Source of the DNA: Acidobacteriota bacterium
GTDB lineage: Bacteria > Acidobacteriota > Vicinamibacteria > Vicinamibacterales > 2-12-FULL-66-21
Length of the DNA: 39,834 bases
Direction: 5' to 3'
Assembly: GCA_003223835.1 (NCBI GenBank)
Contig: QHWR01000077.1
Coordinates: 41,076 to 80,909, forward strand
Part shown: piece after piece, positions 8,144-8,294 of the stretch
How the letters are laid out: each line of letters opens with the position of its first letter
Position numbering within the stretch: the stretch's first letter is position 1
Notes under the pieces: model-generated
Database searches by the model: none
Told to the model about the DNA's origin: nothing
What the model saw: only the letters and a program-made list of their open reading frames with translations
Made by a program: the position numbers and the translations under genes

Positions 8144-8294
8144 CTTCCGCCTGAAGGCGGCAGCCACGAAATTCTCACGGTGGCGGCCGCCTGCTGCTCC
8201 TGAATACGTGGAGCTTCCAGTTGAATGTCGGAGCTTCCGGTTGAATATCGGAGCTTCCGGTTGAATACTCGTGGCTTCCGCCTTCAGGCGGAAG
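8144..8294. repeat. 151-bp MITE/REP-like element with terminal inverted repeats and three 20-mers
   Basis: The gap between atpG and atpD is bounded by two copies, in opposite orientation, of a 25-bp sequence (8144-8168 and 8270-8294) that match at 24 of 25 positions when one is reverse-complemented. Each copy is itself a small hairpin: CCGCC-TGAA-GGCGG at 8147-8160 and CTTCCGCC-TTCA-GGCGGAAG at 8275-8294. Between them sit three direct 20-bp units (8211-8230, 8231-8250, 8251-8270; core GAGCTTCCGGTTGAATATCG) with one to a few mismatches. The layout is like paired REP or miniature inverted-repeat elements. Its translations (FRLKAEAT on one strand, WLPPSGG in another frame) resemble spurious peptides I associate, from memory only, with Acidobacteriota genomes. 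Confidence 0.8.

Follow-up and report, generated by a model that had tools for sequence, protein, structure and literature searches.

The 151-bp element between atpG and atpD is most probably a GTAG-tagged REP dimer whose two REPs stand tail to tail (TT), one of dozens in this gp6-type Acidobacteria genome, and its three internal 20-mers probably grew in place by slippage or template switching. The REP family to which it belongs is new but of a known kind, and one-sided half-hairpin tandem growth is its only unusual trait. We refer to this genome as G000 and to the whole analysed stretch of 39,834 nucleotides as the window.

Layout of the element in the atpG-atpD gap

The F1Fo ATP synthase operon lies on the minus strand of the window, and both genes bordering the gap were confirmed by Pfam matches. 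The sequence-only reading had the element filling this gap, and it indeed takes up 151 bp of the 171 bp between the atpG stop codon and the atpD ATG. In the order of the transcript, the features were as follows:

8302-9177, minus strand: atpG, gamma subunit (PF00231, Pfam match)
8302-8304, minus strand: atpG stop codon, 7 nt ahead of the right hairpin in the transcript
8144-8294, unstranded: the complete tail-to-tail REP dimer (151 bp), whose inverted arms at their longest span 8141-8169 and 8269-8297 (29 nt, 93%)
8271-8294, plus strand: right REP, with the foot GTGG at 8271-8274 and a perfect hairpin at 8275-8294
8202-8280, plus strand: tandem array, with three 20-mers at 8210-8269, continuing through the first 6 bases of the right REP's stem
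8168-8270, unstranded: private core between the two feet; the core 20-mer is absent elsewhere in the genome at ≤2 mismatches
8144-8167, minus strand: left REP, with a hairpin at 8144-8163 (one mismatched base pair) and the foot at 8164-8167, GTGG on the minus strand
8131-8143, minus strand: atpD leader ACCAGAGATCACA, by direct reading the sole separator of the left hairpin and the atpD start codon
6679-8130, minus strand: atpD, beta subunit (PF00006 and PF02874, Pfam match), ATG at 8130

End-to-end comparison of 8144-8168 with the reverse complement of 8270-8294 gave 24 of 25 identical positions, in agreement with the inverted ends first reported, and the claim that each end forms a hairpin also held, with RNA MFE values of -13.2 kcal/mol for the perfect right 20-mer and -9.1 kcal/mol for the left one with its single mismatch. 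This hairpin pattern was found four times in the window against 0.11 occurrences expected by chance.

The three 20-mers noticed in the middle of the element were recovered as units at 8210-8229, 8230-8249 and 8250-8269, the second and third being 90% and 80% identical to the first, and TRF placed 3.5 copies at 8210-8280, reaching into the right hairpin. The core scored 32 for tandem repetition; among 358 stretches of equal length, the best values after it in non-overlapping frames were 27 and 16, and the 27 may come from this very array read in a shifted frame. Because CTTCC recurs at 8214, 8234 and 8254 and then at 8275, where the right hairpin begins, so that its spacing runs on into the REP, the 20-mers are half-copies of the REP on the right, placed upstream of it and made of local flank, foot and the first 6 stem bases. 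In units 2-3 the foot has degenerated to CGGAG, so the link to the REP edge there rests on CTTCCG and the spacing. The 20-mers had rightly been called unusual, but they are no independent motif and derive from the REP edge. The proposed genome search with the 20-mer returned only its own three copies and one match with 3 mismatches, and a separate dispersed family was therefore rejected.

Other short tandem repeats (about 7-9 bp) lie in the window at 9239-9272, 19151-19179 and 35189-35265 (CTTCTGC; TGCTGAA; CACAGAGCA with CCTCTGTGA nearby), and similar-looking repeats are present in the atp gaps of relatives, for example CAACTCCCAAC and CAGCTGACAGCT.

Copies, pairing and turnover of the hairpin family

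Further copies, whose absence from this and related genomes would have refuted the sequence-only reading, were abundant, as the 20-bp hairpin at ≤2 mismatches had about 165 sites in the 5.75-Mb genome compared with 3 for a reversed control. The comparison itself proved right, the copies being GTRG-tagged, multicopy, mostly intergenic and arranged in inverted pairs. The family consensus is GTGG (rarely GTAG) followed by CTTCCGCCT-TC-AGGCGGAAG. Among 122 oriented sites in G000, where orientation demanded 3 of the 4 foot bases, the foot was GTGG at 116 and GTAG at 4; in G009, 31 of the sites read carried GTAG. Sites were gathered by similarity to the hairpin consensus, so that conservation of the stem is partly by construction, but compensatory changes are not, and these exceeded expectation in four genomes (11 vs 0.55 expected in G000 and 17 vs 3.8 expected in G034, for example), indicating that the stem is kept by pairing. 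With a rough coding-track model, used in place of first ORF-based gene calls that overcalled gene overlap, 16 of 71 clusters were intragenic, compared with about 90% coding sequence in the window, so the family is mostly extragenic. One dimer lies inside an open frame (L053), and its counterpart in L157 has no dimer; at L090, three exact tandem copies of a REP plus 23 bp of flank stand at a contig end.

Exact GTRG-tagged copies were present in 7 of 162 genomes of the order, G000 included, in a sample where each species was represented by a single genome, in many cases a metagenome assembly. Tens of copies were found in each of G000, G003, G009 and G034 and one in each of three others, and copy sites were examined in about 70 genome stretches. 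Named records containing the 25-mer were, among the matches listed, Acidobacteria, including a gp6 isolate. A search of Rfam gave no match to a curated family, the only hit being a chance-level one to CsrC (E 2.6).

Close pairs in G000 were tail-to-tail, with feet inside, in 47 of 58 cases, at spacings of 41-200 bp with a cluster at 45-53, and single REPs occurred as well. Head-to-head pairs were as common as TT pairs in G034, so TT dominance belongs to G000 rather than to the whole family. The cores were mutually unlike, sharing no 11-mer except arm-like ones. This bears on the MITE-like nature suggested from the sequence, in which the 151 bp would move together as a non-autonomous DNA transposon bounded by terminal inverted repeats: the 25-29 bp inverted ends would suit such an element, but its copies should have internal sequence in common and these do not, REPs also exist singly, and target-site duplication was not apparent by eye among the copies listed, which makes a MITE extremely unlikely.

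The gap between atpG and atpD was variously occupied in relatives. It contains a dimer of this hairpin with a different core in G009, and in G003 (L208) a single hairpin copy interrupted by other sequence; the gaps of G010, G004 and G006 are short and without this hairpin, and other relatives have unrelated repeats there. The interruption in L208, about 85 bp long (AAAGCTTCGGCGGACCGCCGTAGCC...), is part of a 50-90 bp repeat that is 85-95% alike at several other loci. Two further orthologous places (L092/L270 and L097/L279) are occupied in both G000 and G009 with differing cores, and several others are empty or hold unrelated repeats. At shared sites the foot differs, being GTAG in G009 and GTGG in G000; this is only suggestive of concerted evolution of the foot, and independent insertion into the same gaps also fits.

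The element is probably transcribed along with its neighbours in the atp operon, and its transcript is predicted to be able to form one long hairpin (-96.1 kcal/mol, z -6.7); we found no terminator-like site on the operon strand. The strength of this fold, the position 7 nt past the stop codon of atpG and 13 nt ahead of the ATG of atpD, and the hairpin in the same gap of G003 and G009 could speak for an RNA element dedicated to fixing the ratio of gamma to beta expression. Such a role is nonetheless highly improbable, given the same element at dozens of unrelated loci, the operon strand free of terminator-like sites, and relatives that lack it in this gap or have unrelated repeats instead. The likeliest effect is incidental, through 3'-end protection or mild polarity. 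As regards the atp operon, the case warns that a conspicuous structure between genes may be a repeat lying there by chance.

One-sided tandem arrays and their origin

Tandem growth beside the hairpin was a recurrent property of the family. Tandem repeats were present in 17 of the 47 TT cores in G000, and every such core had a unit peculiar to it (p<0.005 each vs shuffles). Counted per site, arrays lay on the foot side and not on the outer side in G000 (36/119 vs 0/119), G034 (7/66 vs 0/49) and G003 (5/57 vs 0/51), counts that are not independent because both sites of a dimer share one core; G009 was the exception (1/38 foot side vs 2/36 outer). Single REPs alone gave the same polarity, with arrays at 9/40 on the foot side and 0/34 on the outer side. 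The polarity could have reflected coding sequence on the outer side, but it held when only flanks that the rough coding calls gave as noncoding were counted (33/129 foot side vs 0/87 outer, compared with 42/1569 for other noncoding DNA). The single-REP and noncoding counts cover three genomes, G009 not among them.

The arrays were also limited in extent. Aligned to the adjoining REP, 42 of 43 arrays included ≤11 hairpin bases and one included 13, and in 10 further arrays the whole hairpin was duplicated; arrays thus end before the second arm unless a complete hairpin was copied. Polarity and extent were used as tests in place of an argument from the foot content of the units, which was dropped since in a 28-bp core any unit as long as about 18 bp touches a foot. 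These results showed that the arrays are one-sided and that their units comprise flank and foot together with no more than the first arm and the loop; REPs can thus seed private minisatellites. Foot-side arrays were present at 0 of 31 REPs in 350 kb sampled from E. coli K-12, and one-sided half-hairpin tandem growth was not found described in a literature search confined to open papers.

As the origin of the arrays, we favour hairpin-blocked replication slippage, with template switching as a variant, in which copying would halt ahead of the hairpin or within it and would restart about 20 nt upstream, so that each new unit would hold flank, foot and first stem arm only. Slippage alone does not by itself explain why the arrays stop before the second arm. 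A similar picture would be expected if whole units were duplicated and then lost the second arm, and a whole-hairpin duplicate with a decaying copy at L270 in a relative could be an intermediate of that route.

The enzymes that might act on the foot were sought as well. The RAYT/TnpA-REP transposase suggested as a partner by the sequence-only reading was not found in G000, a 93%-complete genome in which the Y1_Tnp (PF01797) and RAYT (NF047646) profiles gave no match over cut-off. Y1 genes are present in relatives G003, G009, G008, G010 and G023; those examined as partners were rejected, none being adjoined by copies of this hairpin. One Y1 transposase gene in G009 (L223, on C70) is accompanied by another hairpin, GCCGGGTCTTCAGACCCGGC and its variants, in four copies, and this gene and its hairpins may be a separate RAYT-REP pair. 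We infer past mobilisation of the REPs from how many copies there are and how they are distributed; they may once have spread by a RAYT-type single-strand transposase since lost or missed.

An enzymatic origin would keep the same REP dimer and attribute the arrays to an HUH nuclease (RAYT/TnpA-REP or IS200-type Y1) that acts at the GTRG foot, nicking nearby and priming repeated copying of flank, foot and first arm. The polarity strictly to the foot side and the ending of units within the first arm and loop fit such an enzyme, and the GTAG foot is the recognition site of TnpA-REP, which cuts beside REPs; in the Marinomonas system the cleavage site is altered when the foot is GTGG (PMC8266576). 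Against it, no Y1 gene was detected in G000, nor in G034 (74% complete), which has arrays, and E. coli has TnpA-REP yet lacks foot-side arrays in the REPs sampled; we consider this origin unlikely. More generally, REP hairpins might be polar hot spots of tandem growth, where some process, possibly enzyme-driven at the GTRG foot, copies flank, foot and first arm only, over and over, and thereby builds private arrays on one side and variable TT-dimer spacers. We put this generalisation forward as tentative and rather doubtful.

Comparison with known REP systems

BIMEs of Escherichia coli resemble the present family in having REPs in alternating orientation that are often transcribed, and differ in that the K-12 sample lacked foot-side arrays. 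REPINs of Pseudomonas fluorescens SBW25 (Bertels and Rainey 2011, PMC3116915) share GTGG-type REPs and inverted doublets foldable into one hairpin, but their invariant ends are outside (head-to-head) and their spacing is set (71 or 110 bp), whereas in G000 the feet are inside, the spacing is 41-200 and the cores are unrelated. Each REPIN group is also tied to a RAYT, and none was found in G000. A RAYT-associated REP arrangement (REPtron) would likewise have a cognate RAYT flanked by REP, which was not found, the Y1 loci of G003 and G009 being without the hairpin.

The closest description is that of the GTAG-tagged REP superfamily (Di Nocera et al. 2013, PMC3733652). The shared features are a GTRG foot, a 9-bp stem and a 2-nt loop, TT pairing with variable spacers, and a mostly intergenic location between co-directional genes with some copies inside ORFs. 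GTGG variants of GTAG REPs exist (PMC3733652; PMC2817692); in this Acidobacteria genome, unlike in the superfamily as described, GTGG is the rule. Acidobacteria are absent from the phyla that PMC3733652 lists as having GTAG REPs, and are named there only for TIR-flanked tyrosine transposases; the foot-side tandem half-copies seen here in spacers are not described in the sections consulted. Variable spacers are the published rule of thumb for GTAG-tagged TT dimers (PMC3733652), and dimer spacers are reported to be conserved if the feet point outward and variable if they point inward, for which the sections consulted give no explanation; the half-hairpin arrays of the present family provide a countable signature for testing why TT spacers vary.
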